From the NCBI RefSeq assembly GCF_000743525.1, contig NZ_JQGK01000001.1:1-64000 (forward strand): a stretch of 64,000 nucleotides of DNA, written 5' to 3'. Positions 17,052 through 62,651 of the stretch are shown here, in pieces. This DNA comes from Sulfurospirillum sp. SCADC (GTDB lineage Bacteria; Campylobacterota; Campylobacteria; Campylobacterales; Sulfurospirillaceae). Position numbers and translations under genes: made by a program. The notes under the pieces were generated by a model that was not told the origin of the DNA, made no database searches, and was given only the letters and a program-made list of their open reading frames with translations. Within the stretch, counting starts at the first letter, position 1. Each line of letters opens with the position of its first letter.

Positions 17052-18570
17052 AAAAGTTGAATATATCCTTTGGATAATAGCTTTTTCGGTAACGCTTTGG
17101 TCGTTTCAGGTTTCACAAGTAAGCATGACCGCTTTAATAGAAGGGTATCAATACGGTATAGATTTGATAAAAGAGATGTTCCCACCAAATTTTAAAAACT
17201 TTGACACCATCGTTGCACTTTTGCTTGAAACCGTTGCCATGGGAGTCTGGGGGACCATTATTGGGACGATTATCTCTTTGCCTCTTGGTTTTTTGGGTGC
17301 TAGAAATTTAAGTCCCAATACAATGGTCTATTTTTTGATCAACGAACTCACAAATATTTTACGCTCTATCCCTGATATTGTCTATGCCCTTATGTTCGTA
17401 GTCTCTATAGCGGTGGGGAGTTTGGCTGGAATACTGGCTATTGTCTTTGCCACTATTGGGCTTTTGACAAAGTTTTATATTGAGAGTTTTGAGAGTATCG
17501 ATATGAAACCCATAGAAGCTATCAAATCAACAGGAAGCAGTTATGCCTATATGCTTCGTCACGGCATTTTTGAACAAGCACTGCCGCTTATTAGCAACCA
17601 TACACTCTATTTGCTAGATCACAACATCCGAATTGCTATGGCGCTTGGGCTTGTTGGTGCTGGTGGGATTGGGATGGAGCTTTATGGGGAGCTTCGGTAC
17701 TTTAACTATGACAAAGTGGCGGCTATGCTTATGTGTATCTTGGTAATATTGAGCTTAATCGATAGAGTTTCAAACTACGCAAGAGATATTATACTTCACT
17801 CAAGCAAACACAATAAAGAGTATTTTAAAAAGTCATTTGTGGCGATTGCATTTATTGCCCTTGGGATTATTTCCATGATGTATAGTCCTGCTGAATTTGC
17901 TTCACTGATCTCTGGAATACCAAGGCTCTATGAAGCAATCACAGGGTTCTTCCCCCTTGATTTTAAACGAGTGAATGCGTTCGCTTTTTTAATGCTTGAA
18001 ACCATAGCTATGGCTATTGCAGCGACTGTTATTGCAATAGGATTTTCCCTACCTCTAGGATTTATATTGGCAAAAAATATAAAAGTATCCGCACCTATAA
18101 GGATTATTGTAGCAGAGTTTATTAACTTTTTGCGCGCAATGCCTGATTTGCTTTTTGCGATTATTTTGGTTTCCGTTATTGGACTTGGACCATATGCTGG
18201 AGTTTTGGCGATTGCTTTACATGTAACAGGATTTTTAGCAAAGTTTTATGCGGAAACCATAGAGAGTATCGATGAAAAACCAATCGAGGCACTCAACTCT
18301 ACGGGTTCTTCAAAACTCCATATTTTATACCATGGATATTTTAAACAAATTGTCCCATTGTTTCATAGCTACAATCTTTATATGCTCGATAGAAATGTCA
18401 GAGCATCCACAACGATGGGACTTGTTGGCGCTGGTGGGATTGGGTTTGAATTGATTATGAGTATAAAACTTTTTGAGTATCAACAAACAGGAACCATTAT
18501 ACTCCTCATCATTATAGTGGTTTCAATCATCTCTAAAGTCTCATCATACTTTAGAAAAAAATTAGTTTAG
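17044..18570 (+). CDS. phnE: Phosphonate ABC permease, two PhnE domains fused
   Basis: 508 residues, about twice a single PhnE. Each half carries the same series of motifs: ETVAMGVWGT / ETIAMAIAAT with PLGF, LRSIPDIVYA / LRAMPDLLFA, and ESIDMKPIEAIKSTGSS / ESIDEKPIEALNSTGSS. The joint is near residue 260. A single chain can therefore supply both permease domains for a PhnC2 dimer. The ATG at 17044 overlaps phnC. It holds the only TTACATGTAA copy in the phn block (18216). Confidence 0.92.
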   Translation: MNKKVEYILWIIAFSVTLWSFQVSQVSMTALIEGYQYGIDLIKEMFPPNFKNFDTIVALLLETVAMGVWGTIIGTIISLPLGFLGARNLSPNTMVYFLINELTNILRSIPDIVYALMFVVSIAVGSLAGILAIVFATIGLLTKFYIESFESIDMKPIEAIKSTGSSYAYMLRHGIFEQALPLISNHTLYLLDHNIRIAMALGLVGAGGIGMELYGELRYFNYDKVAAMLMCILVILSLIDRVSNYARDIILHSSKHNKEYFKKSFVAIAFIALGIISMMYSPAEFASLISGIPRLYEAITGFFPLDFKRVNAFAFLMLETIAMAIAATVIAIGFSLPLGFILAKNIKVSAPIRIIVAEFINFLRAMPDLLFAIILVSVIGLGPYAGVLAIALHVTGFLAKFYAETIESIDEKPIEALNSTGSSKLHILYHGYFKQIVPLFHSYNLYMLDRNVRASTTMGLVGAGGIGFELIMSIKLFEYQQTGTIILLIIIVVSIISKVSSYFRKKLV

Positions 18571-18579
18571 GAAAGAAAA

Positions 18580-19014
18580 ATGGTAAGAGAAGATCTGAAT
18601 TTTATCCTTCAAAAGGCTGATTTCAAAGCCCTTGAAGCGTTATATAACACAATAAAAAATAGCCTAGAGATAAAAGTGCTTCAAGCACCCGTGCAGCAAA
18701 CACTTTTACAGCCTATTTATGAGCCAATTAGTAAAGGGGAATTTTATGGTGGAGAGATACTTGTTACAACTACAATTGTCCAACTCACAAAAGCAGACCG
18801 TTCACACAAAGGATGGGCGATGGTTCAAGACGACAACGACAAGCTATCCCTATATATCGCAGTTTGTGATGGATGTTTTGGTGGGGATATTTTCAAAGAA
18901 GAGATTGAAGAGCTGGCTACCCAAACACTACGCAACATACAAAAGGCTCAAAAAGAGTTCAATCAAAAAGTAAATAGCACTAGGGTCAATTTTGACCTTA
19001 TGGCAGGAGCGTAA
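18580..19014 (+). CDS. phnG: C-P lyase subunit PhnG
   Basis: 144 residues. PhnG is part of the PhnGHIJ core and, with PhnI and PhnH, helps join phosphonate to ATP ribose. GEILVTTTIVQL and the end ..STRVNFDLMAG fit the family. It lies nine bases after phnE and two bases before phnH. Confidence 0.9.
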   Translation: MVREDLNFILQKADFKALEALYNTIKNSLEIKVLQAPVQQTLLQPIYEPISKGEFYGGEILVTTTIVQLTKADRSHKGWAMVQDDNDKLSLYIAVCDGCFGGDIFKEEIEELATQTLRNIQKAQKEFNQKVNSTRVNFDLMAGA

Positions 19015-19016
19015 AC

Positions 19017-19565
19017 ATGGAAACTTTAGATATCGAAAAACTCAATAGACAAAATTTTAAAAGTTTAAGTGATGCCCTCTCAATGCCTGGGAAAATTACA
19101 CACATTCAAGAACTATTTTCATCACACTTTTTGGCGGTGGCGAATGTCCTTTTGTACAGTGAGGTCTCTTTTTATTATAGTGGCGATGAGGATATGACAC
19201 TTGTTGAAGCAATTACACATCCTAAGGCTACTACTTTAAAAGAGGCTGATTATATTTTCAGCGATACGATTGATGTGGTTTTGATAGGTGAAGCTAAAAA
19301 GGGAGACTATCTGAGTCCCGATTTTAGTGCTACTTTGATTTTTAAATGTGAAGATTTTAACGCGGATAGATACCGTTTAAGTGGCCCTGGAATTGATGGA
19401 ACTAAAGAGATAAGTTTACCTTGTAAGGCAGAGTTTATAGAGCGTTTAATGGAAAAGAATCGTGACTATCCCCTTGGAATTGAGGTGTTCTTTATCAATC
19501 GTTGTGGTGAGGTATTGGCACTTAGCCGTACAACCAAAGTGGAGGGTTTATCATGGGATATGTAG
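19017..19565 (+). CDS. phnH: C-P lyase subunit PhnH
   Basis: 182 residues. PhnH is a PLP-transferase-fold protein without cofactor, a structural subunit of the C-P lyase core. N-terminal LNRQNFKSLSDALSMPGKI and the LSGPGID motif match the family. It overlaps phnI by 13 bases. Confidence 0.9.
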   Translation: METLDIEKLNRQNFKSLSDALSMPGKITHIQELFSSHFLAVANVLLYSEVSFYYSGDEDMTLVEAITHPKATTLKEADYIFSDTIDVVLIGEAKKGDYLSPDFSATLIFKCEDFNADRYRLSGPGIDGTKEISLPCKAEFIERLMEKNRDYPLGIEVFFINRCGEVLALSRTTKVEGLSWDM

Positions 19566-20608
19566 CGATAAAAGGTGGTGAAGAGGCTATTAAAAACTCT
19601 TTAGCATTTTATGAAGAGGCGATACAAACACATCAAAACATAGAGGCTTCTTTTGTAGAAAATGCTCTGCGATACGGGGTTGATAGAGTGATGAGTGAGG
19701 GGAGTTTATATTCGAAAAAACTAGCAAGTCTTGCGATACTCAAATCTGGTGGAGACCTGCTTAATGCTTCTTTTTTCTTAAGAGCTCATAGAAGTTCATG
19801 TGCTAGAGCTGGGATTGCTAAAACTATTTACACTGATGATATGAGAGTGGCTAGACGAATATCTTCTGCTTTTAAAGATATCAAAGGTGGGCAAATTTTA
19901 GGACCTTCAAATGACTATGAAGTGAAGCTCATTTTGAAAAAAACACTAAACAAAACCGTGTGGAATGAGTACAAAGATGAAGATATTTTTGTAGAATCAG
20001 CACTCAAACCTCTAAGAGATGCAAATATGGTCAAAACTTTACCAAAAGATAAAACAATAAGCGACATCACAAGAGTCTTCCCCTCAGCACCCTATCCAAG
20101 AAGTGCCGTGATGCAAGTGATGGCAAGGGGTGAGAGTGGAAGTATGCTAGGCTTTGCTTATACCTCCATGAGGGGATATGGGGATATTCACCCTACTATT
20201 GGAGACCTTAGGCTAGGAAGCTGTGAGGTAAAATTTACCCATCCATTGACCAAAAATGAGGTAAAAATCGGGGAGATTGATATGACGGCATGTGAAGTAG
20301 CGGCTACTTTTGAAAAGCAAAATGATGGAAGTACGAAACTTACTACGGGGTTTGGGTGTTGTTTTGGGTTCAATGAGACAAAAGCTATTAGTATGAGCAT
20401 TTTGGATACAACACTCTATAACAAATCCCACACCATAGGGCAAGGTGGCATAGCTGATAATTTTGAGATGATAGTCCATCATATTGACGGTATTGAGTCT
20501 CAAGGATTTACCAATCACTATAAACTCCCCCACTATGTAACATTTCAAGCAGACTTACAAGTCTATGAAAATGCAAAGAATTACGCTAAAGATGGGGAGA
20601 AAAAATAG
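19553..20608 (+). CDS. phnI: C-P lyase subunit PhnI
   Basis: 351 residues. PhnI acts as the nucleosidase that, with PhnG, H and L, forms the alpha-D-ribose-1-methylphosphonate-5-triphosphate type intermediate. MGYVAIKGGEEAI, the central LGFAYTSMRGYGDIHPT and GFCFGFNE-type Cys stretch (GFGCCFGFNE) match PhnI. Its stop directly abuts the phnJ ATG. Confidence 0.92.
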   Translation: MGYVAIKGGEEAIKNSLAFYEEAIQTHQNIEASFVENALRYGVDRVMSEGSLYSKKLASLAILKSGGDLLNASFFLRAHRSSCARAGIAKTIYTDDMRVARRISSAFKDIKGGQILGPSNDYEVKLILKKTLNKTVWNEYKDEDIFVESALKPLRDANMVKTLPKDKTISDITRVFPSAPYPRSAVMQVMARGESGSMLGFAYTSMRGYGDIHPTIGDLRLGSCEVKFTHPLTKNEVKIGEIDMTACEVAATFEKQNDGSTKLTTGFGCCFGFNETKAISMSILDTTLYNKSHTIGQGGIADNFEMIVHHIDGIESQGFTNHYKLPHYVTFQADLQVYENAKNYAKDGEKK

Positions 20609-21433
20609 ATGAGATACGGTTTTTTAGATGAAGATGCAAAAAAAGAGATACGACGAGCAACACTCAAAGCGATAGCAATCCCTGGGTATCAAGTATCGTT
20701 TGCCTCTCGTGAACTTCCCATTGCTCGAGGTTGGGGAACGGGTGGGTTGCAAGTGACATTGTCCATTATCAATGAAGATGATTGTTTAAAAGTGATTGAT
20801 CAAGGGTGTGATGGAAGTGTGAATGCGGTTAATATTAGAAATTTTATCGTTTCAGTAACGGATAATGCGACAACTTTAGATACACAAGAAGCGACCATCA
20901 TCCAAAGTCGCCACAGAATCCCAGAAGAGCCACTTAAAGAGGGGCAAACGTTGGTTTTGCAAGTGCCCTATCCTGAAGTTTTGACCAATGTTGAAGCCGA
21001 TAGCTTTAAGCAAAAAGTGATGCACGCTAACAGTGACTATGCGAAACTGTGGGTACTTTTGTATGAAGATACTGCCCAATTTGGAGATAGCAGAATAGGT
21101 CACAGATACCCTGTTATGGTACATGATAGATATGCTATGGATCCTTCCCCCATTCCTAAATACGACACAAGAAAGCTCCATAACAATAAAGCTTTGATTC
21201 TTTTAGGAGCAGGAAGAGAGAAAAAAATCTATGCAATTCCTCCTTATACAAAAGTAGAGCCCCTTAAATTTGAAGACAGAGCGTTTAAAGTAGAGAGTTT
21301 TGAGAACAAAAAATGTGCACGATGTGGTGCTAGTGGGGTGTTTATGGATGAAGTGCATACAGATGATGGAACTGTAAAATACTACTGCAACGACACGGCA
21401 TATTGTGACAAAAAGTTAGAGGGGAAACTATGA
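20609..21433 (+). CDS. phnJ: Carbon-phosphorus lyase PhnJ (radical SAM)
   Basis: 274 residues. PhnJ cleaves the C-P bond of ribose-1-phosphonate 5-phosphate by radical chemistry, releasing the alkane. The C-terminal cysteines are arranged CX2CX20CX5C (CARCG ... CNDTAYC), close to the CX2CX21CX5C I recall for the Fe4S4 site of the enzyme. YNFAYLDEQTK in E. coli is replaced by a normal family start (YGFLDEDAKKEIRRA). It overlaps phnK (ATGA). Confidence 0.94.
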   Translation: MRYGFLDEDAKKEIRRATLKAIAIPGYQVSFASRELPIARGWGTGGLQVTLSIINEDDCLKVIDQGCDGSVNAVNIRNFIVSVTDNATTLDTQEATIIQSRHRIPEEPLKEGQTLVLQVPYPEVLTNVEADSFKQKVMHANSDYAKLWVLLYEDTAQFGDSRIGHRYPVMVHDRYAMDPSPIPKYDTRKLHNNKALILLGAGREKKIYAIPPYTKVEPLKFEDRAFKVESFENKKCARCGASGVFMDEVHTDDGTVKYYCNDTAYCDKKLEGKL

Positions 21434-22266
21434 TTCTGGACCTTAAAAATGTCAATAAAGTCTATGGTAGATTTTGCGATAGATGTTTAGAAAGCACAGG
21501 TGCGGAGTTTGAAAGCTCCATTTGCCCACATTGTGGCAGTGTGGTAGCAGTCAACAGTATCAATCTTCATCTTAAAAGAGGTGAGATTTTGGGTATTGTT
21601 GGAGAGAGTGGCAGTGGAAAATCAACCCTTTTACAACTTATCTATCAAGACCAAAAAGCCAGTTCAGGAATTATCCATATGGATACATTTGTCAATGCAA
21701 TGGGTGGATACAAAAATGTCCTTGAAGCCAATGCCAATGAGCTGGGATATCTAAGAGATGCGTTAATGTCGATGATTTATCAAAATCCACGATTGGGACT
21801 TAACTATCAATTTAGTGCCGGTGGAAATATTGCTGAAAAAGTCATCATGAGTGGAACAAAAAAATATGAAGAGATACGAAATAGGGCTTTATACTTTTTA
21901 GAAAAAACTGAAATTCCCGTTCAAAGAATCGATGACTATCCAGATAGATTTAGTGGGGGACAGCAACAAAGAATTCAAATCTCAAAAGCACTCTCAAGCA
22001 ATCCAAAGATTTTGCTTCTTGATGAACCAACCACAGGACTTGATTTGTCGGTTCAAGCAAAAATACTAGACCTTATCAAAGAGCTACAAAAAGAGATAGG
22101 CTTTGCGATGGTGATAGTGTCACACGATTTAGGGGTGATAAAACATCTCACCGATATTTGTATCGTGATGAAAAATGGAAAAATAGTTGAGTATGGACTA
22201 ACGGATCAAATTTTAGAAGACCCGCAGCATCCCTATACTCAAGTGCTCGTTTCAAGTGTATTGTAG
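21430..22266 (+). CDS. phnK: C-P lyase ABC-type ATPase PhnK, with Cys-rich insertion
   Basis: 278 residues. PhnK docks on the PhnGHIJ core and is needed for C-P cleavage. Walker A (GESGSGKST), signature (FSGGQQQRIQISKAL) and Walker B (ILLLDEP) are intact. Between the first strand and Walker A lies an insertion with cysteines at 16, 19, 32 and 35 (CX2CX12CX2C, CDRC ... CPHC), absent from E. coli PhnK as I recall it; a zinc or iron-sulfur site is possible. Confidence 0.92.
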   Translation: MILDLKNVNKVYGRFCDRCLESTGAEFESSICPHCGSVVAVNSINLHLKRGEILGIVGESGSGKSTLLQLIYQDQKASSGIIHMDTFVNAMGGYKNVLEANANELGYLRDALMSMIYQNPRLGLNYQFSAGGNIAEKVIMSGTKKYEEIRNRALYFLEKTEIPVQRIDDYPDRFSGGQQQRIQISKALSSNPKILLLDEPTTGLDLSVQAKILDLIKELQKEIGFAMVIVSHDLGVIKHLTDICIVMKNGKIVEYGLTDQILEDPQHPYTQVLVSSVL

Positions 22267-22274
22267 GAGTGGTT

Positions 22275-22976
22275 ATGGAAAAAATAAAAGTTAGAAATTT
22301 ATCAAAAGAGTTTACGGTGCACACACGAGGTGGCATCAAGATACAAGGGTATGAACACATCAATTTTGAAGTGAAAAAAGCTGAATTTTTATCCCTTTAT
22401 GGACCAAGTGGAATGGGAAAATCGTCGATTTTAAAAGCCCTTTTTAGAACTTATACTACAACAGGTGGAGAGATAATATTTACGAAAGAAGATGGCAAAA
22501 GTGTCAATATCGCAACTTGTGATGAGAGCACAATGCTGGATTTGCGAAAAAATGAGATTGGCTATGTGTCACAATTTTTAAAAGTATTGCCCCGAATTGG
22601 TGCTGTGGATGTGGTGGCTGCGCCTTTAATAGACAAAGGGGAAGATGAAAGAAAAGCAAAAGAGGTCGCTAAAGAGTTGCTCTCGTATCTAGGGATTAAA
22701 GAGGAGCTTTTTAATGTCTCCCCTCTTACATTTAGCGGCGGAGAACAACAAAGAGTCAATATTGCCAAAGGGATAATCGCCCCAAAATCAGTCCTTTTAC
22801 TCGATGAGCCAACCGCATCACTGGATCATAGCAATACCATGAAAGTGATACAAAGACTTCAAAAAATCAAAGCAGAGGGTGTGGCGATGATAGGTATCTT
22901 TCACGACATGGAAGCGATGAGAGCGATTAGTGATACAGTCTATGACCTTCAATCAAAAAACTATGTGGAGATATAA
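22275..22976 (+). CDS. phnL: C-P lyase ABC-type ATPase PhnL
   Basis: 233 residues from the ATG at 22275, which has TAGGAG over the phnK stop; a GTG at 22269 is also in frame. Walker A (GPSGMGKSS), signature (FSGGEQQRVNIAKG) and Walker B (VLLLDEP) are present. PhnL works with PhnI, G and H in the first step of the pathway. Confidence 0.92.
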   Translation: MEKIKVRNLSKEFTVHTRGGIKIQGYEHINFEVKKAEFLSLYGPSGMGKSSILKALFRTYTTTGGEIIFTKEDGKSVNIATCDESTMLDLRKNEIGYVSQFLKVLPRIGAVDVVAAPLIDKGEDERKAKEVAKELLSYLGIKEELFNVSPLTFSGGEQQRVNIAKGIIAPKSVLLLDEPTASLDHSNTMKVIQRLQKIKAEGVAMIGIFHDMEAMRAISDTVYDLQSKNYVEI

Positions 22977-22980
22977 CAAG

Positions 22981-24126
22981 ATGCAAACCATACTAAGAAG
23001 CACCAATGTTTTGGTGGATGATGCGTTTATACGTGCCGATATTGTTATCCAAGGAGATAAAATAACGGCCATCAAACCTTATCAATCAGTTGATGTTGCA
23101 ATAGATTTGGGGGATAGAAGAGTGGTCGCTGGATTTGTAGATCTTCACGGAGATGCGATAGAAAAAGAGATAGAACCTCGCCCTGGGGCTAGATTTCCTA
23201 CCGTTATGGCAGTGGTTGAACTTGACAAAAAGCTCTCTATGTCTGGGATTACTACGATGTTTCATGCCATTGGATTTAATGATGAAGAGCTACGAAAAGG
23301 CAGAGGCACTGAGCAATCCAAATCGCTCATACATGAGATTTATGAAGCCAATAGAGAACATTTGGGAGTTGATAATCTCATACACGCACGATTTGAAATC
23401 ACCAGTGAAAGTTCAATTTCAACCGTTAAAAGCCTCATTAAAGAGAGAAAAATCAATATGCTCTCTATTATGGATCATAGCCCAGGGCAAGGTCAGTTTA
23501 AGACATTGGAAGCTTGGAAGAACTATTTTCTTAAAACCTATACCATTAATGAAGAGGAAGTAGAACAATACCTTGCTGACAAAAACGCCAAAGATAAAAA
23601 CTCAATCGTTCAAGATTTAGTCACATTTGCCATAAATCATCACTTGCCCGTTTTAAGTCACGATGATGATTGTTTGGAAAAACTCACTGTATTAAAAGCA
23701 CTGGGGGTGACATTTTCAGAATTTCCACTCTCTCATGACGTGGCAAAAAATGCAAAAGAGATGGGCATCAAAACAGGCATGGGTGCTCCAAATGTAGTAA
23801 GGGGCGGAAGTCAAAGTGGAAATATCGCCGCTCGTGAACTCATACAAGAGGGGGTTTGTGACTATCTTTGCAGTGATTATCACCCTGCATCGATGCTTCT
23901 TAGCCCTTATCGACTTAAAGAAGATATTGGCTTACCCCTTGAAAAGGGCTTTGCAATGATAAGCCAAACACCTGCCGCTTTAGCAGGACTGAGTGATAGA
24001 GGAGAGTTAAAAGAAGGGCTTTTAGCTGATATTGTCGTTATTGATGAGTCCCATTTTCCAAAGGTTGTCCTGACCTTTAAAGAGGGTGAAATTGTTTATA
24101 ATGGCATTAGAGGATTTTCACTTTAA
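22981..24126 (+). CDS. phnM: Alpha-D-ribose 1-methylphosphonate 5-triphosphate diphosphatase PhnM
   Basis: 381 residues, amidohydrolase superfamily. It removes diphosphate from the triphosphate intermediate. The metal-site motifs GFVDLHGD, EIEPRPGA, MDHSPGQGQ, SHDDD and SDYHPASML are visible. The ATG at 22981 follows phnL by four bases; the TAA overlaps the phnN ATG (TAATG). Confidence 0.93.
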   Translation: MQTILRSTNVLVDDAFIRADIVIQGDKITAIKPYQSVDVAIDLGDRRVVAGFVDLHGDAIEKEIEPRPGARFPTVMAVVELDKKLSMSGITTMFHAIGFNDEELRKGRGTEQSKSLIHEIYEANREHLGVDNLIHARFEITSESSISTVKSLIKERKINMLSIMDHSPGQGQFKTLEAWKNYFLKTYTINEEEVEQYLADKNAKDKNSIVQDLVTFAINHHLPVLSHDDDCLEKLTVLKALGVTFSEFPLSHDVAKNAKEMGIKTGMGAPNVVRGGSQSGNIAARELIQEGVCDYLCSDYHPASMLLSPYRLKEDIGLPLEKGFAMISQTPAALAGLSDRGELKEGLLADIVVIDESHFPKVVLTFKEGEIVYNGIRGFSL

Positions 24127-24638
24127 TGAAAAAAATAGTTTTAATAGTCGGGGCTAGTGGCGTTGGAAAAGATACACTTTTAAAAGCTGTTAAAAATGAG
24201 ATTAAAGCAAATTTTGTGAAACGATATATCACACGAGAACCAGACACTAATGAATCTAATTTTTATTTGGATAAAGAAGCATTTGAAAATCTTGAAAAAA
24301 GCGACTATTTCGTATCTGTTTGGAAGGCTCATAATAACTATTATGCAATCGCCAAATCACATATAAAAGAGGGGCTCAATATCATATCAATTTCAAGAGA
24401 GGCTATCAAAGATTTTGAAAATAGTTTTGATGATGTTACAACGATAGAGATTGGAATACCCAAAGAGATGCTTTATGCTAGGCTCAAAAACAGGGGGAGA
24501 GAAAATGAAGAGGCTATTTTAAAAAGAATAGAGAGATATGGGCAAAAAATAGAGGCTAAAAATCTAATCTATTTTGACAATTCTAGGCCACTAGAAGAGA
24601 GCAAAAAAGCGTTTTTGGCACTTTTAAACTCTTTATAA
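24126..24638 (+). CDS. phnN: Ribose 1,5-bisphosphate phosphokinase PhnN
   Basis: 170 residues, guanylate-kinase-like P-loop fold. It converts ribose 1,5-bisphosphate to PRPP, salvaging the ribosyl carrier of the pathway. The P-loop GASGVGKDTLL and the KRYITREP segment match the family. phnP follows after 11 bases. Confidence 0.9.
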   Translation: MKKIVLIVGASGVGKDTLLKAVKNEIKANFVKRYITREPDTNESNFYLDKEAFENLEKSDYFVSVWKAHNNYYAIAKSHIKEGLNIISISREAIKDFENSFDDVTTIEIGIPKEMLYARLKNRGRENEEAILKRIERYGQKIEAKNLIYFDNSRPLEESKKAFLALLNSL

Positions 24639-24649
24639 AAAGGCTTTTT

Positions 24650-25369
24650 ATGTTTGAATTAAGATTTCTAGGAACGGCTGATAGTGGAGGGATTCCGTCT
24701 CATAATTGTGAGTGTAGTATTTGCCAAGAATACAGACAAAAAGGTCAAAAGAACTTAGCAACAAGTGCTTATATTGAGTGTGAAAATGGCGAAATCATAC
24801 TTCTTGATGCTGGGATAGAAGATAGTGCTTCTATTTTTGATGGGAAAAAAATTGTTGCGATACTTTTGACTCATTTTCACCCAGATCATGCAGTAGGACT
24901 TTTACGGCTTCGATATAGTAGTGATAAGATAAACTGCTACCACCCAAAAGATAAAGATGGTTTTGCAGATCTATTTAAACATCCAAAAGCGATAAAATTT
25001 ATAGAAAATTCTCCCTTTCAATCAATAGAAATAAACAATCTTAAATTTACCCCTATTCCCTTAAAACACTCTAAAAATACTACTGGTTATTTAATACATT
25101 CCAAAAATAAAACCATTGCTTATTTAACCGATTGTGCAGGAATAAAAGAAGAATCAATGATGTTTTTGCTTTTACAAACTATAGATGAATGCTATATTGA
25201 TGCTTGCTTGAGTCCTAATGTTCAAAAAGGAAACCACTTAAATTATCAAGAAGCAAGTAAAATACTGGATAAAATAAATGCTAGAAAATCCTATTTAATT
25301 CATGGTAGTCATGTTACTTTAGAGTATATTAGAAAAAATAATTTACAGCTCAAATACAATTATATATAG
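24650..25369 (+). CDS. phnP: Phosphoribosyl 1,2-cyclic phosphate phosphodiesterase PhnP
   Basis: 239 residues, metallo-beta-lactamase fold. It opens the cyclic ribose phosphate left by PhnJ. The structural cysteines CECSIC follow the LGTADSGGIPSHN start, and LTHFHPDHAVGL carries the metal ligands. It is the last gene of the phn operon; no terminator is visible behind it. Confidence 0.92.
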   Translation: MFELRFLGTADSGGIPSHNCECSICQEYRQKGQKNLATSAYIECENGEIILLDAGIEDSASIFDGKKIVAILLTHFHPDHAVGLLRLRYSSDKINCYHPKDKDGFADLFKHPKAIKFIENSPFQSIEINNLKFTPIPLKHSKNTTGYLIHSKNKTIAYLTDCAGIKEESMMFLLLQTIDECYIDACLSPNVQKGNHLNYQEASKILDKINARKSYLIHGSHVTLEYIRKNNLQLKYNYI

Positions 25370-25531
25370 TTGAATTTTCAAAATTATCTAAAAAGTAATC
25401 TCAATGGTTTAATAAATATACTTACGTTGCAGGAATCTACCTATAAAGTTCTTAGCTTTGCACACGAACTCATTCAAACCCTAGACGATCCTTTCTTCAC
25501 AATGGTTTTTCACAAAGCACCATGGGAATAG
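25370..25531 (+). pseudogene. Open reading remnant after phnP, 53 codons without a start
   Basis: The frame stays open after the phnP stop to a TAG at 25529-25531. Its last part, from ESTYKVLSFAHELIQTLDDP on, has protein-like composition. There is no start codon with a ribosome site. It may be the 3' end of a gene displaced when the phn block arrived, or chance. Confidence 0.2.
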
Positions 25532-25574
25532 CTTTTTTTGTAAAAAATATAAGAGAAATAGGCTAATTTTTCGC

Positions 25575-25580
25575 TATAAT
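25575..25580 (+). promoter_or_regulatory. -10 element upstream of aspC
   Basis: A perfect TATAAT lies 30 bases before the aspC ATG in an AT-rich context without a clear -35, as is usual for vegetative promoters of Campylobacterota. It marks the right edge of the accessory block. Confidence 0.6.
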
Positions 25581-25610
25581 CTGCACGATATTTTTATAGG
25601 GGAAAGTTTC

Positions 25611-26780
25611 ATGCTGTCTAAAAGAATCCAAGTTTTATCACCGTCTCTTACTATGGCGATTACATCCTTAGCGAGAGATCTTAAAGCACAAGGTCGAGAT
25701 GTTCTGAGTTTTTCAGCGGGTGAGCCTGATTTTGATACGCCACAAATTGTCAAAGATGCGGCGATTGCGGCGATTAACGATGGTTTTTCAAAATACACCG
25801 CGGTTGGCGGTACTCCAGAAGTGCTTAAAGCGATTGCTGGAAAATTGAAGCGAGAAAACAATCTTGACTATAAACCCTCCGATATTGTGGTCAATGTGGG
25901 TGCGAAACATTCATTGTTTAACATTTTTCAAGCGATCATTGACGAAGGTGATGAAGTCATTATTCCTGCCCCTTACTGGGTAACGTATCCTGAAATTGTC
26001 AAGTACAGTGATGGAACACCCGTGTTTATTGATACCGATGAAACCAGTGGTTTTAAAATCACCCCTGCACAGCTTAAAGCGGCGATCACACCTAAAACAA
26101 AAGCACTCTTACTCAACACGCCATCCAACCCTACAGGTTCTGTCTACTCCAAAGAGGAGCTGACTGCTTTAGCAGACGTGTTAAAAGGAACCAACGTTTT
26201 AGTGGTTTCCGATGAAATGTATGAGAAAATTCTCTTTGATGGTCATCTGTTCACTTCCGTTGCATCGATCAGCGAAGATATGTATAAACGCACCATTACG
26301 GTTAACGGTCTGAGTAAATCGGTCTCCATGACAGGATGGCGTTTTGGTTACTTTGCCTGTCCTATTAAAGAGATTACCGATGCGATTGTTGATTTTCAAG
26401 GACAAAGTACCTCAAATATTAACTCCATTACGCAAAAAGCAGCGGTGCCTGCTCTTAATGGTTTAGCCGATGCGGATATTGAAATCATGCGTTCAGCGTT
26501 TGAGCGAAGACGCAATCTTGCGCATGAACTTTTAAATCAAATTGAGGGTCTTTCGGTCTTAAAACCAGAAGGTGCTTTCTATCTGTTTGTCAACACCAAA
26601 GCGGTTGAAAATGACTCCATGAAATTTTGTCAAAAATTGCTTGAAGAAAAAGGTGTTGCGGTCGTTCCAGGTATTGGATTTGGTACGGAAGGGTATTTTA
26701 GGCTCTCTTTTGCGACCGATGATGCAACGATTATCGATGGGATTGAGCGTATTGCCTCTTTTGTTAAAAATTACAAGTAA
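25611..26780 (+). CDS. aspC: Aspartate aminotransferase (class I, AspB/AspC type)
   Basis: 389 residues, PLP-dependent. It interconverts aspartate and oxaloacetate with 2-oxoglutarate. The PLP-lysine region NGLSKSVSMTGWRFGY, NTPSNPTG and the C-terminal FRLSFA arginine are intact. In C. jejuni the counterpart aspB directly follows cysE; the intervening block here breaks that order. Two hairpins follow the gene. Confidence 0.93.
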   Translation: MLSKRIQVLSPSLTMAITSLARDLKAQGRDVLSFSAGEPDFDTPQIVKDAAIAAINDGFSKYTAVGGTPEVLKAIAGKLKRENNLDYKPSDIVVNVGAKHSLFNIFQAIIDEGDEVIIPAPYWVTYPEIVKYSDGTPVFIDTDETSGFKITPAQLKAAITPKTKALLLNTPSNPTGSVYSKEELTALADVLKGTNVLVVSDEMYEKILFDGHLFTSVASISEDMYKRTITVNGLSKSVSMTGWRFGYFACPIKEITDAIVDFQGQSTSNINSITQKAAVPALNGLADADIEIMRSAFERRRNLAHELLNQIEGLSVLKPEGAFYLFVNTKAVENDSMKFCQKLLEEKGVAVVPGIGFGTEGYFRLSFATDDATIIDGIERIASFVKNYK

Positions 26781-26812
26781 GCTTGTAAAGGGTACTCCAA
26801 AAAAAGTACCCT
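26771..26812 (+). terminator. Twin hairpins terminating aspC
   Basis: TTACAAG-TAAG-CTTGTAA (26771-26788, containing the aspC stop) is followed at once by AGGGTACT with AGTACCCT (26789-26812) around an A-rich loop and then CTTTCGTT. The second looks like the terminator proper. Confidence 0.6.
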
Positions 26813-26905
26813 CTTTCGTTAAGTTAAAACTTCTCAAAAAAATCTTATAGTTTTGATACAATTCCGACACTATTTTTACATACTTATCACGAAAGGCTTA
26901 AAGCG

Positions 26906-28102
26906 ATGAACAAATACGTCATTACCCTTGCAAAAACCTGTTTGGGTTGTAAAAAACCATCCTGTCGTACGGGATGTCCTGTTGGCACTCCTATTCCTGA
27001 GATGATTCGCCTTTTTTTGGCAGGAGAGATTAAACAAGCCGGCAAAATGCTGTTTGAAAATAATCCTCTCTCCGTCATCTGTTCTATGGTTTGTCCGCAT
27101 GAAAAACATTGTGAGGGACACTGTATTCTCAATAAAAAGGGAACGGCGGTGAGTGTGGGAAGTATTGAGAATTATATTTCCGATCTTTACATGAACGATC
27201 TTCAGTTTGAAAAACCACTCAAAAATGGCAAAAAAGTTGCAATTATTGGAAGTGGTCCTGCTGGTATTGCGCTTGCGGTTATTTTAGGTGTGAAAGGGTA
27301 TGAGATCACGATGTACGATGCCCATGATAAAATCGGTGGCGTATTGCGCTATGGTATTCCTGATTTTAGACTCAATAAAGAGATTCTAGATACGATTGAG
27401 ACGAAACTGCGTCAATTAGACGTGACGATTCGCCCGAACATTACCATTGGTAAAAACATCACGATTGCCGATCTTTTCCGTGATGATTTTAAAGCTGTTT
27501 TCATCGGAACGGGGGTTTGGGCTCCGAAAAAATTGGGTATTAAAGGTGAAAGCTTAGGGCATGTTCACTTTGCGATTGACTATCTTAAAAATCCTGATGT
27601 GTACCGTTTAGGTCATAGAGTGGTGATTTTAGGAGCTGGAAATGTGGCAATGGATGTGGCACGAACAGCGGTGCGTCATGGTGCACGTGAAGTGATTATT
27701 ATGTACCGAAAAGGTATGGAGGATATTCCTGCGTCACATCATGAGGTCGAGTGTGCCAAAATCGATGGTGTTAAGTTTGAGCTTTATAAACAGCCTATCG
27801 AAATTAACGATCAAGGTGTTCTGTACAGCAGTACCGATGAGAGTGGCGAAGAAGGATTGTTGGAAGCGGATTCGATCTTAATTGCTATTAGTCAAAATCC
27901 AAACGATCATATTGTTCAAAGTGCCCGACAAATCGAAGTGGATGGAAAAGGCTTAGTGATTACCGATGAGAGTGGACGCACAACGATGCAAGGTGTTTTT
28001 GCTTCAGGTGACGTGGTAACGGGAGCTCGAACGGTAGTCGAAGCAGTCGCTTTTTCAAAACGTGCTGCGGTTGCCATTGAAGAGTATGTCGACTCACTTT
28101 AA
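26906..28102 (+). CDS. GltD-like FAD/iron-sulfur oxidoreductase
   Basis: 398 residues. The N-terminal ~110 residues have two clusters of cysteines (CLGC..PSCRTGCPVG; CSMVCPHEKHCEGHC) as in the Fe-S domain of glutamate synthase small subunit and related proteins. FAD (IIGSGPAGIALA) and NAD(P) (ILGAGNVAMDVA) Rossmann motifs follow. There is no gltB nearby, so it more likely serves as an NAD(P)H-linked electron-transfer subunit for another partner (NfnB/SudA-like relatives are possible). The substrate is unknown. Confidence 0.8.
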   Translation: MNKYVITLAKTCLGCKKPSCRTGCPVGTPIPEMIRLFLAGEIKQAGKMLFENNPLSVICSMVCPHEKHCEGHCILNKKGTAVSVGSIENYISDLYMNDLQFEKPLKNGKKVAIIGSGPAGIALAVILGVKGYEITMYDAHDKIGGVLRYGIPDFRLNKEILDTIETKLRQLDVTIRPNITIGKNITIADLFRDDFKAVFIGTGVWAPKKLGIKGESLGHVHFAIDYLKNPDVYRLGHRVVILGAGNVAMDVARTAVRHGAREVIIMYRKGMEDIPASHHEVECAKIDGVKFELYKQPIEINDQGVLYSSTDESGEEGLLEADSILIAISQNPNDHIVQSARQIEVDGKGLVITDESGRTTMQGVFASGDVVTGARTVVEAVAFSKRAAVAIEEYVDSL

Positions 28103-28164
28103 GAGAGTTTTTGCTGAACTCTCAACACGCTTTTGAATTGAGTTTTACAAGAATCGAATGAGAA

Positions 28165-28199
28165 CGTTTTACATGTAAAGATTCTTTACATGTAAAACG
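28165..28199. terminator. Inverted pair of TTTACATGTAAA between convergent genes
   Basis: CGTTTTACATGTAAAG (28165-28180), ATT, CTTTACATGTAAAACG (28184-28199): 16-bp perfect arms, each holding a full copy of the dispersed palindrome. It lies between the GltD-like gene and a convergent minus-strand gene, so it probably ends both transcripts. Confidence 0.65.
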
Positions 28200-28207
28200 A
28201 TTGTGTA

Positions 28208-28453
28208 TTATTTTGAAGGTGTTCCAAAACGTACTTTGGCATCTTGAAGTGCTGCGATGAGTTCATCAAGATTTTCGTAAGGGATATGTGCTTTCCAATC
28301 TGGCTCTTCACCATTTTTCTTCAATGCAATACCGATGCTTACAACAGGGAATGAACCACTTCCATACGGTTCTTCTAAATGTGAGATCGAAATAATGCCG
28401 TTTTTTGTTCCTGCTAATGGAAATTTTGTCAATATTGTGTTTTTTCCGCCCAT
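28208..28453 (-). CDS. Small conserved-looking protein of unknown function
   Basis: 81 residues, soluble, start MGGKNTILTKFPLAGTKNG, end ALQDAKVRFGTPSK. It lies 12 bases after lpxD on the same strand, so it is likely the last gene of the ilvB-ilvH-lpxD operon. I do not recognise a domain; no cysteine or membrane segment is present. Confidence 0.7.
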   Translation of the reverse strand: MGGKNTILTKFPLAGTKNGIISISHLEEPYGSGSFPVVSIGIALKKNGEEPDWKAHIPYENLDELIAALQDAKVRFGTPSK

Positions 28454-28465
28454 GGCTTGATCCTT

Positions 28466-29416
28466 TTAATGCTTTGTAAAAAATTTCGCTATTTTTGCGT
28501 GCGTTTTAAGCCACTCACTTTGCAACGTCAGTGGGAAACCGCCATACGTTTTACCGCCCTCTATTGATTTTGAAACGCCACCGCGTGCAGCAATCGTTGC
28601 AAAATCACCAATTTCCAAATGTCCAGCTGTCGCACTTTGTCCACCCATCACGACGTTACGTCCGAGTTTGGATGAACCTGCTAGTCCTGATTGTGCGACA
28701 ATAATACAATACTGCCCCAGTTCACAATTATGTCCAATTTGAACAAGGTTGTCTATTTTTGTCCCTTTTCGAATGATCGTTGATCCAAAAACAGCTTTGT
28801 CTATCGTTGTATTTGCCCCTACTTCCACATTCTCTTCCAGAATGACATTCCCCGTGTGATAGATCTTAATATGCTCACCCAATTTTGTATGAGCATAACC
28901 AAAACCGTCACTTCCAATCACCGTTCCCGCTTGAATAATGCACCCCTCACCAATGACACAACCATCGTAAATGACTGCATTAGGGTAAATGACCACATTT
29001 TTACCAATGGTTACGTTAGAACCAATCGTGACATTGGGCATAATCTGCACGCCCTCTTCCACCACACTGCCACTGCCGATCACTACATTTGCACCCAGAC
29101 TACTTTTCTCAGAAATGGTAGCAGGAGACGCGGTATCAAAGGGTTTTTTAGCAAAAAAGGCACTCGCATATGCCATGCTCAAATAAGGATTGTCACTGAT
29201 CAGTGCTTTCGAACTTGAAGGAAGGTGTTCAAGGAAAGCAGCAGGGAGAATAACGACCCCTGCTTTGGTGTTTTGTAAATCGCCTAGAAGTTTAGGATTG
29301 ACAAAAAAAGCGATTTGAGACGAGGTCGCCTCCTTGAGTGTTGCAAAGGAAGTAACCTCTTGATCGATTCCTGAAAATTCAAGCGAAATTGCTTGGGCTA
29401 GAAGGCTTAGTTTCAT
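28466..29416 (-). CDS. lpxD: UDP-3-O-acylglucosamine N-acyltransferase LpxD
   Basis: 316 residues. It adds the second acyl chain in lipid A synthesis. An N-terminal uridine-binding domain is followed by a left-handed beta helix of hexapeptides (IGSNVTIGKNVVIYPNAVI) with the catalytic His in QIGHNCELG. It abuts ilvH without a gap, the ilvB-ilvH-lpxD order also known from C. jejuni. Confidence 0.93.
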   Translation of the reverse strand: MKLSLLAQAISLEFSGIDQEVTSFATLKEATSSQIAFFVNPKLLGDLQNTKAGVVILPAAFLEHLPSSSKALISDNPYLSMAYASAFFAKKPFDTASPATISEKSSLGANVVIGSGSVVEEGVQIMPNVTIGSNVTIGKNVVIYPNAVIYDGCVIGEGCIIQAGTVIGSDGFGYAHTKLGEHIKIYHTGNVILEENVEVGANTTIDKAVFGSTIIRKGTKIDNLVQIGHNCELGQYCIIVAQSGLAGSSKLGRNVVMGGQSATAGHLEIGDFATIAARGGVSKSIEGGKTYGGFPLTLQSEWLKTHAKIAKFFTKH

Positions 29417-31729: not shown

Positions 31730-32653
31730 TCATTTGGAAGGTGTATTTGAGGATCGTGCTAAATTGTAACACTGCTCTAAAACAACCCCTTCTCTGAGTC
31801 CATCATCGACGACAACGCATTTTTCAAAGCCAAGTTTACGCATCATCGCTTTAACAATTAAAATCCCAACAACCACCAAATCCCTACGGTTTGTACCGGT
31901 GAAGCGCTCTGCATCACTCTCATTCATACTAATTAAGCGTTCATACGCCTCTGCAAAATCCTTTACATGTAAGATTTTACCATTGACTCGTCTTACATCA
32001 TAATGAGCATAATCCAGCCCTTCTAAGAAAGCGGCAACCGTGGTAGGCGTTCCTGCAGTTGTTACTAATTGTAAAAAAGTGGAAGAAATATCAGGTTGCG
32101 TTTGCATAAAGGGACTAATAGACTCCACAATACGTTCAACATGTGCTTCACGTTCTTGCGTGTAGCGTTCCGCGGTGTTAATAATGCCAAAGGGAAAGCT
32201 TTGAGAGTGCTTGATACCATTAAGACAAAACGTGAGTTCCGTTGAACCGCCACCAAGATCGAACAAGGCGTAGGTTTGATGCTCAAAACCCTCACGTTTA
32301 AGCGCATGCTCAATCGCCAACGAGGTTAGGTACGCTTCTCTTTCCCCTGAAATAATTTCAAAATGAAGCCCAAATTCTGCCTCGATTTCATCTAAAATCG
32401 CTGCGGCATTGGACGCTACACGCATCGCTTCGGTGGTGACACAGAAGCATTTTTCTTCTTTAAAATCAAACACTTTAGAAGCTTCATGCAGGGCATTTAT
32501 AATGTTTCGTTTGGAAGTTTCGCTAATCATACCCGTTACATGTAAATCTTTTGCCGTGCGCACAATGCGCTCAAACGCTTTCACACGGGTTTTACTCTCA
32601 CAGGCTATTTGTACAATGCGAAGCGTATTGGAACCTAAATCACACCCAATCAT
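31730..32653 (-). CDS. Ppx/GppA-family phosphatase
   Basis: 307 residues, the short single-lobe form. The ASKHA-type ATPase core is visible: GCDLGSNTLR, the central FDLGGGSTELTF and TTAGTPTT. Members hydrolyse polyphosphate or pppGpp; which one cannot be decided. Two TTACATGTAA copies lie in the gene. It follows a small membrane protein gene after seven bases. Confidence 0.87.
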   Translation of the reverse strand: MIGCDLGSNTLRIVQIACESKTRVKAFERIVRTAKDLHVTGMISETSKRNIINALHEASKVFDFKEEKCFCVTTEAMRVASNAAAILDEIEAEFGLHFEIISGEREAYLTSLAIEHALKREGFEHQTYALFDLGGGSTELTFCLNGIKHSQSFPFGIINTAERYTQEREAHVERIVESISPFMQTQPDISSTFLQLVTTAGTPTTVAAFLEGLDYAHYDVRRVNGKILHVKDFAEAYERLISMNESDAERFTGTNRRDLVVVGILIVKAMMRKLGFEKCVVVDDGLREGVVLEQCYNLARSSNTPSK

Positions 32654-36210: not shown

Positions 36211-36993
36211 ATGATGCTTCTAGGCGTAAATATCGATCATATTGCAGTGCTAAGAGAAGCGCGAAAGATTAATGATCCTGATCCATTGGACGCCATTTCT
36301 TTAGTCAAGCGTGCAGGTGCAGATCAAATCACGATTCATTTACGAGAAGATCGTCGTCATATTAACGATGAAGATGCGAAAAAAATCATTGAAATTTCCC
36401 AACTCCCGATTAATTTGGAGTGTTCCATTACCCCAGAAATCATTGAAAAAGTGATTGAACTGCGTCCACACCGTGCAACCTTAGTGCCTGAGAAACGTGA
36501 AGAGGTGACAACAGAGGGCGGACTTGACGTCGTGAAGAACAAAGAGGTCATTCAAAAAATTGCCCAAAGACTGAAAAAAGAGCAGATCGAGCTTTCACTT
36601 TTTATTGACCCTAACAGCGCGATGATTGAAGCGGCAAAAGAGATTCAAGCCGAATGGATCGAACTTCATACGGGCTCTTATGCCAATATTTACGCAATGC
36701 TCTACTCTAACCTTTCTCGCTCACGCCACAGCATTAAGGAACTTGAATTGGATCGTGAATCTTTACATGTAAAACTGATTGATGCAACGCATGAGCTGGA
36801 ACGCGCCTCTAAACTCGCATACCAATTAGGACTCAAAGTCGCGGCTGGGCATGGACTGAATTATCACAATGTGAAACGCATTGTAGAGATCAACGAGATT
36901 AGCGAGCTTAACATTGGTCAAAGCATCATTGCGCGCGCTGTTTTTGTGGGTTTTGAGCAAGCGGTTAAAGAGATGTTAGGATTGGTACGATGA
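36211..36993 (+). CDS. pdxJ: Pyridoxine 5'-phosphate synthase PdxJ
   Basis: 260 residues, TIM barrel. It joins 1-deoxyxylulose 5-phosphate and 3-amino-2-oxopropyl phosphate in DXP-dependent vitamin B6 synthesis. LGVNIDHIAVLREAR, ITIHLREDRRHI and AAGHGLNYHNV are family motifs. The ATG may be 36211 or 36214. The stop overlaps pdxA (ATGA). Confidence 0.95.
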   Translation: MMLLGVNIDHIAVLREARKINDPDPLDAISLVKRAGADQITIHLREDRRHINDEDAKKIIEISQLPINLECSITPEIIEKVIELRPHRATLVPEKREEVTTEGGLDVVKNKEVIQKIAQRLKKEQIELSLFIDPNSAMIEAAKEIQAEWIELHTGSYANIYAMLYSNLSRSRHSIKELELDRESLHVKLIDATHELERASKLAYQLGLKVAAGHGLNYHNVKRIVEINEISELNIGQSIIARAVFVGFEQAVKEMLGLVR

Positions 36994-53213: not shown

Positions 53214-53245
53214 TTACATGTAAAGATTTTCATCTTTACATGTAA
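53214..53245. terminator. Second inverted pair of TTACATGTAA between convergent genes
   Basis: TTACATGTAAAGAT (53214-53227), TTTC, ATCTTTACATGTAA (53232-53245): 14-bp perfect arms, each containing a copy of the dispersed palindrome. It sits between the J-domain gene and the convergent DAHP synthase gene. Confidence 0.65.
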
Positions 53246-62632: not shown

Positions 62633-62651
62633 CCCTTTACATGTAAAAAGG

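Follow-up and report, generated by a model that had tools for sequence, protein, structure and literature searches.

Abundant DNA uptake sequences are described, in the literature cited here, from the Neisseriaceae and Pasteurellaceae only. The Neisseria DUS is GCCGTCTGAA, and inverted pairs of it serve as terminators (PMC1852404; PMC2397512; PMC3630211). The Pasteurellaceae USS reads AAGTGCGGTnrwwwwwnnnnnnrwwwww (PMC1626085; PMC1852404), and a route from uptake sequence to co-opted terminator was proposed for it by Kingsford et al. (PMC1852404). Perfect copies of USS and DUS outnumber mismatched ones, a property named as setting them apart from regulatory binding sites (PMC1626085), and the drop from exact to one-mismatch copies amounts to 92-fold in Haemophilus influenzae and 82-fold in Neisseria gonorrhoeae (PMC1939737). 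For Campylobacter jejuni, a statement in PMC10046745 that cites Beauchamp 2017 has it that DNA uptake requires methylated RAATTY, the methylation being carried out by CtsM. The literature we searched yielded no earlier report of self-DNA uptake tags in Campylobacterota, none that joins uptake sequences with Sulfurospirillum or Sulfurimonas, and none of natural transformation of Sulfurospirillum.

A hairpin between two convergent genes

The locus compared here with these systems lies in a window of 64,000 nucleotides, part of contig 1 of the Sulfurospirillum sp. SCADC genome (2.66 Mb, 99.99% complete). The original prediction placed two full copies of a palindrome, forming 16-bp perfect arms around a 3-base loop, between convergent genes. 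A reading of the window bears this out at 28165–28199, where the sequence is CGTTTTACATGTAAAG-ATT-CTTTACATGTAAAACG. The flanking genes (+ strand, 26906–28102; − strand, 28208–28453) converge on the hairpin, which begins 62 nt past the stop codon of the former and ends 8 nt from that of the latter. The locus comprises the following features:

26906–28102, + strand: upstream gene, NAD(P)-dependent oxidoreductase related to glutamate synthase small subunit (Fer4_20 + Pyr_redox_2)
28151–28164, − strand: weak T-rich tail for transcripts arriving from the right (TTCTCATTCGATTC on the − strand), from orthologue comparison and terminator scan
28165–28199, no strand: stem-loop with 16-bp perfect arms (28165–28180 and 28184–28199) and loop ATT (28181–28183), proposed bidirectional intrinsic terminator
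28168–28179, no strand: copy 1 of the iterated palindrome TTTACATGTAAA, from motif scan of the window
28185–28196, no strand: copy 2 of the iterated palindrome TTTACATGTAAA, from motif scan of the window
28200–28215, + strand: weak T-rich tail for transcripts arriving from the left (ATTGTGTATTATTTTG), from sequence and terminator scan
28208–28453, − strand: 81-aa protein, family unassigned, in 22 of 24 Sulfurospirillum genomes searched; 3′ end 8 nt from the hairpin
28466–29416, − strand: lpxD, the next gene, on the same strand as the 81-aa gene

The upstream gene scores under the NCBIfam cut-offs and is therefore given no more precise name. Related loci located through lpxD come from Sulfurospirillum and other Campylobacterota, the nearest being a Sulfurospirillum MAG at 95% protein identity. 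The 10 kb immediately before the focal pair (18216–28168) are free of the palindrome core, a length near the chance maximum.

As RNA, the focal hairpin has a folding energy of −19.2 kcal/mol on one strand and −18.8 on the other (z −5.9 and −6.3, respectively), values that none of 200 shuffles matches on either strand, and a terminator scan detects it in both directions. As in rho-independent terminators, a stable stem-loop lies shortly 3′ of a stop codon; unlike the G+C-rich stem of such terminators, the focal stem has G-C at 5 of its 16 pairs. Runs of T never exceed four on either strand, leaving weak U-tails: the U-tract is clear as an average over convergent pairs and in several orthologues, and weak at the focal copy. 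The stem that two adjacent palindrome copies supply would be long and A/U-rich and closed by a tight loop, with T-rich stretches following on each strand.

The 22 Sulfurospirillum genomes in which orthologues of the 81-aa gene were found formed the set for comparing the focal site, and a stem-loop lies 3′ of the stop codon of this gene in all 22. At 19 of these loci the hairpin is built from the palindrome, at times with one copy degraded and the stem intact. In G010, G021 (S. cavolei) and G002 the stem consists of unrelated sequence, and the S. cavolei replacement is followed by TTTTTTT. Across the 17 alignable orthologues, two-sided changes at stem pairs occupy 14 cells where shuffling gives 6.0 (0/500), and none of the slid registers reaches the true one in this test of compensatory change. 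The number of stem pairs with a two-sided change in these 17 orthologues is 5, an ordinary value (186/500), since the palindromic core is almost invariant. Judged from these alignments, what is conserved is the hairpin, and the palindrome is its usual building material. A conserved, complementary hairpin with T-rich tails argues for a co-opted bidirectional terminator, and the focal pair is very probably a rho-independent terminator serving both convergent genes.

The iterated palindrome, its pairs and its dialects

The 12-mer TTTACATGTAAA occurs 11 times in the window (0.02 expected) and 657 times genome-wide, as against 0 for its reversed control. Its core, the 10-letter palindrome TTACATGTAA, has 1,309 copies in the 2.66-Mb genome, with about 1 for the reversed control. 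The core is restricted to the Sulfurospirillaceae: it is abundant in most genomes of the family, with up to 1,496 copies, and stands at chance level (0–6 copies) in 56 searched genomes of other families. We found no report of TTACATGTAA as an iterated element, the publications that contain the string being unrelated by title and abstract.

Placement was examined in 597 kb of the genome, of which contig 1 (284 kb) alone is unbiased as to pairs; genes were called by a simple home-made codon model and compared with the ORF list. On the unbiased contig, TTACATGTAA has a density of 0.36/kb in genes, 1.61 in tandem gaps, 1.51 in divergent gaps and 11.36 in convergent gaps, and the pair-biased 597-kb sample agrees with this pattern. 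Half of the single intergenic copies (52/104) lie within 40 nt 3′ of a stop codon, a zone covering 23% of intergenic DNA. Stretches devoid of TTACATGTAA were considered as possible foreign DNA, but the longest measures 13.3 kb, near the chance maximum of 10.8 kb. Coding copies in the 597-kb sample favour one frame, with Leu-His-Val at 124 of 189 and Thr-Cys at 58, the stop-making third frame accounting for 7. Further copies in the window include:

362–373, no strand: single copy 3′ of a − strand gene
31962–31973, no strand: intragenic TTTACATGTAAG; the orthologous site of S. cavolei is TGACATGTAA
32535–32546, no strand: intragenic GTTACATGTAAA; the orthologous site of S. cavolei is TGACATGTAA
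36055–36066, no strand: intragenic copy, same site kept in G007, G019, G011, G012, G014, G023 and G004
36762–36773, no strand: intragenic copy, same site kept in nine relatives; S. cavolei has TTACATGTCA
53214–53245, no strand: second close TTACATGTAA pair of the window, in a convergent gap, spacer AGATTTTCATCT
62636–62647, no strand: single copy inside a 19-bp convergent gap

Close pairs, defined as two TTACATGTAA copies with a gap of 0–16, number 46 genome-wide: 23 are convergent, 11 tandem, 9 in genes, 2 at stretch edges and 1 divergent. Congeners with more than 600 copies have 10–46 close pairs each, and genomes outside the family have none. The original prediction proposed to look for an enrichment of close pairs at gene 3′ ends elsewhere in the genome, and this is what we find, with 35 of the 37 extragenic pairs starting within 40 nt 3′ of a stop codon and half of all pairs lying in convergent gaps. 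The significance it attached to a head-to-head arrangement does not survive: since the unit is a perfect palindrome in its own right, every pair of copies forms an inverted repeat, and neither their pairing nor their orientation is informative. Nor is the number of pairs in the unbiased 284 kb significantly in excess, at 6 against a density-null mean of 3.8 (854/5000); convergent pairs on this contig number 5, where crowding at gene ends predicts 2.5. An earlier null drawn from the pair-biased sample (15 pairs, mean 8.0) overstates the excess and was replaced by the 284-kb test.

The case for hairpins therefore rests on complementarity and conservation, and not on pair counts. In the spacer ends, 74% of positions are complementary as against 45% once arms are re-paired between pairs (0/5000), the outer flanks lengthen the stem by 1.70 rather than 0.91 bp (0/3000), and the T fraction of convergent pairs reaches 0.43–0.65 outward at +4 to +9. 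The complementarity of spacers and flanks, together with the outward T, shows that pairs have been retained as stem-loops. The earlier suggestion of co-option as a terminator finds support in the extended stem, the T-tails and the compensatory changes seen at the focal site.

The palindrome is replaced by other words in some lineages. None of ten aligned copies is kept in S. cavolei, where six of the ten sites read TGACATGTAA, TTACATGTCA or TGACATGTCA instead, and TGACATGTMA is ~10–20 times commoner there than in most congeners. The dialect of the S. arcachonense group is CTACATGTAGA, and CTTACATGTAAG is a variant in isolates from other Campylobacteraceae MAGs. G083, a genome from a different family within the order, has 1,549 copies of TATCATGATA, usually followed by G and mostly intragenic, with less intergenic concentration and weakly oscillating flanks; a member of the Sulfurospirillaceae (G026) has 166 copies of this word. 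A Campylobacterales MAG (G104) carries 553 copies of TTAGTACTAA, an iterated palindrome centred on GTAC, of which few sites were sampled. A directional motif, TTTCCACATGCCA, occurs as well, its core CCACATGCC having 623–915 copies in each of four Sulfurimonas-like genomes (G100–G103; Sulfurimonas or Helicobacteraceae MAGs). Close pairs of the Sulfurimonas motif are inverted in 10 of 10 cases and extragenic in 8 of 10. Nearly all of the dialects are centred on CATG. As separate observations, Campylobacter concisus over-represents the AT-rich words TAAATTTATC and TTTAAATTTA alongside other repeats, AAATTT fitting the C. jejuni RAATTY, and G002:C1:1-20000 holds a 22-copy repeat whose unit contains TATAGCCCACCA / AGTGAGATGGTG.

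One complete Sulfurospirillum genome, G008, has just 49 copies. At 80% identity it keeps 1 of 38 aligned orthologous copies; the other 37 are lost, more than neighbouring sequence predicts, and the proteins therefore do not force the core bases. A search of 220 kb of G008 found no replacement dialect, and its CATG frequency (1.01 of the zero-order expectation) gives no strong sign of avoidance through a restriction system.

Uptake-like features and rival explanations

Exact copies of TTACATGTAA stand at 331 times expectation and one-mismatch copies at 2.2 times, a ~150-fold drop; the 597 kb hold 325 exact and 63 one-mismatch copies (28 expected by chance), counted at positions 1–5 on both strands, which cover all positions of the palindrome. 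An oscillation of ~11 bp period runs through the A+T content of both flanks, starting at +4 and continuing past +40, coding copies included, at an amplitude of 1.60 where the control maximum is 0.49 (0/500 controls reach it). Its first two peaks, at +4 to +8 and +14 to +20, fall where the extended USS of H. influenzae has its two AT tracts (PMC1852404). One-sided tracts of the directional USS type were considered and rejected, as left and right are uncorrelated and tracts occur on both sides. Motif-rich relatives at 75–82% nucleotide identity keep 50–100% of aligned copies as against 2–11% of nearby 10-mers, on small samples of 6–8 copies per genome. ComEC is present in the SCADC genome (G000) and in nearly all relatives, the motif-poor ones included; its presence or absence was therefore discarded as an explanation for motif differences among genomes.

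TTACATGTAA thus shares with USS and DUS a copy number of about one per kb or two, the excess of perfect over mismatched copies, inverted pairs at 3′ ends, phased AT and clade variants; its core is its own reverse complement, unlike the directional cores of USS and DUS. An uptake-like history had been read from the pairing of the focal copies. The pairing itself gives no support to such a history; other, independent features do, and on balance we favour TTACATGTAA as a putative DNA uptake sequence of the Sulfurospirillaceae.

That motif density produced the hairpin by chance, with no part for it in transcription, is improbable. Such a reading could point to pair counts mildly above the density-preserving null and to the weakness of the focal T-tails, but it leaves the complementary spacers and outer flanks unexplained, along with a hairpin kept at every one of 22 orthologous loci, three of them with an unrelated replacement stem, and the compensatory changes within it. 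An operator of a global transcription regulator would be palindromic and of this size, and copies do occur in divergent gaps. The ~1,300 copies and a density of 11.4/kb in convergent gaps against 1.5/kb in divergent ones, where a single one of 46 pairs is found, make this reading extremely unlikely.

A HIP1-like palindrome that owes its upkeep to an orphan methyltransferase or to methyl-directed repair, with no link to uptake and with the near-stop pairs as by-products, is the rival that fits a perfect palindrome as highly iterated as HIP1 (PMC4390886), with many coding copies and dialects nearly all centred on CATG, a plausible methylation site. We nonetheless regard it as unlikely, given a density 30-fold higher in convergent gaps than in genes, a two-sided AT phasing over 45 bp unexpected from methylation alone, a Sulfurimonas motif that is not palindromic and one lineage centred on GTAC. 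Since C. jejuni uptake needs methylated RAATTY, a methylated CATG centre is a real possibility, as a rival to the plain uptake reading or as a complement to it. The symmetry of the palindrome and of its phased AT flanks would also suit a DNA-bending homodimer, such as a nucleoid or chromosome-organising protein bound about every 2 kb. The extreme enrichment past stop codons and the scarcity of one-mismatch copies, however, typify uptake sequences and not the sites of regulatory proteins (PMC1626085), and the dialects turn over fast; binding by such a protein appears quite improbable.

We consider likely, as a whole, a two-step account that combines uptake sequence and terminator. The palindrome on incoming double-stranded DNA would be read by a pilus-linked receptor, and the helically phased AT tracts on both sides would ease bending into an outer-membrane pore. 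Biased uptake and recombination would let the palindrome accumulate, its copies settling mainly just past stop codons, where the cost would be lowest; close copies in these positions would then be retained as terminator hairpins.

Comparison with known systems

Like the Neisseria DUS, the Sulfurospirillum unit is a 10-mer found about once per 1–2 kb whose close inverted copies form hairpins, most frequently in tail-to-tail gaps (94 of 231 hairpins in N. meningitidis; 23 of 46 pairs in Sulfurospirillum). In both groups dialects are arranged round a conserved core, CTG in Neisseria DUS and mostly CATG in the Campylobacterota motifs. Unlike the DUS, the Sulfurospirillum unit is palindromic and has phased AT flanks, the two share no sequence, and the uptake role is putative here. 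With the Pasteurellaceae USS it has in common AT tracts one helical turn apart at near-equal offsets, the predominance of perfect over one-mismatch copies, sub-clade variants and partial use as terminators; it differs in having AT tracts on two sides rather than one, an unrelated and palindromic core, and a host from another phylum. Known USS and DUS cores are directional, as is the Sulfurimonas CCACATGCC, whereas TTACATGTAA is palindromic. Cyanobacterial HIP1 (GCGATCGC; PMC4390886) is likewise a highly iterated, lineage-restricted perfect palindrome, but the word iterated here is TTACATGTAA, which gathers at gene 3′ ends and forms hairpins in pairs. With RAATTY as reported for C. jejuni, the Sulfurospirillum motif would share a phylum and a role for a short motif in self-DNA discrimination, putative in Sulfurospirillum. 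Discrimination in C. jejuni, as stated there, works through methylation by CtsM, and the Sulfurospirillum motif is known here from its sequence.

For a wider reading, the balance is about even: Campylobacterota outside Campylobacter and Helicobacter may have an uptake-sequence system of their own, mostly CATG-centred and with lineage dialects, in which the Sulfurospirillaceae form would be the first palindromic uptake sequence, with symmetric AT tracts, read either way and presumably by a two-fold symmetric receptor. If true, this would add an independent origin, the third, in a different phylum and with dialects traceable site by site, and would separate general rules (3′-end placement, hairpin co-option, phased AT, mismatch depletion) from accidents of two groups. 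A palindromic uptake sequence would also constrain how its receptor reads DNA. The motifs would also suggest barriers that can be tested where Sulfurospirillum and Sulfurimonas species exchange genes, and would help to annotate terminators in these genomes. Set against the described systems, the terminator reading has good support and is of a known kind, and the new part is the palindromic, family-specific, uptake-like carrier with dialects across the Campylobacterota.
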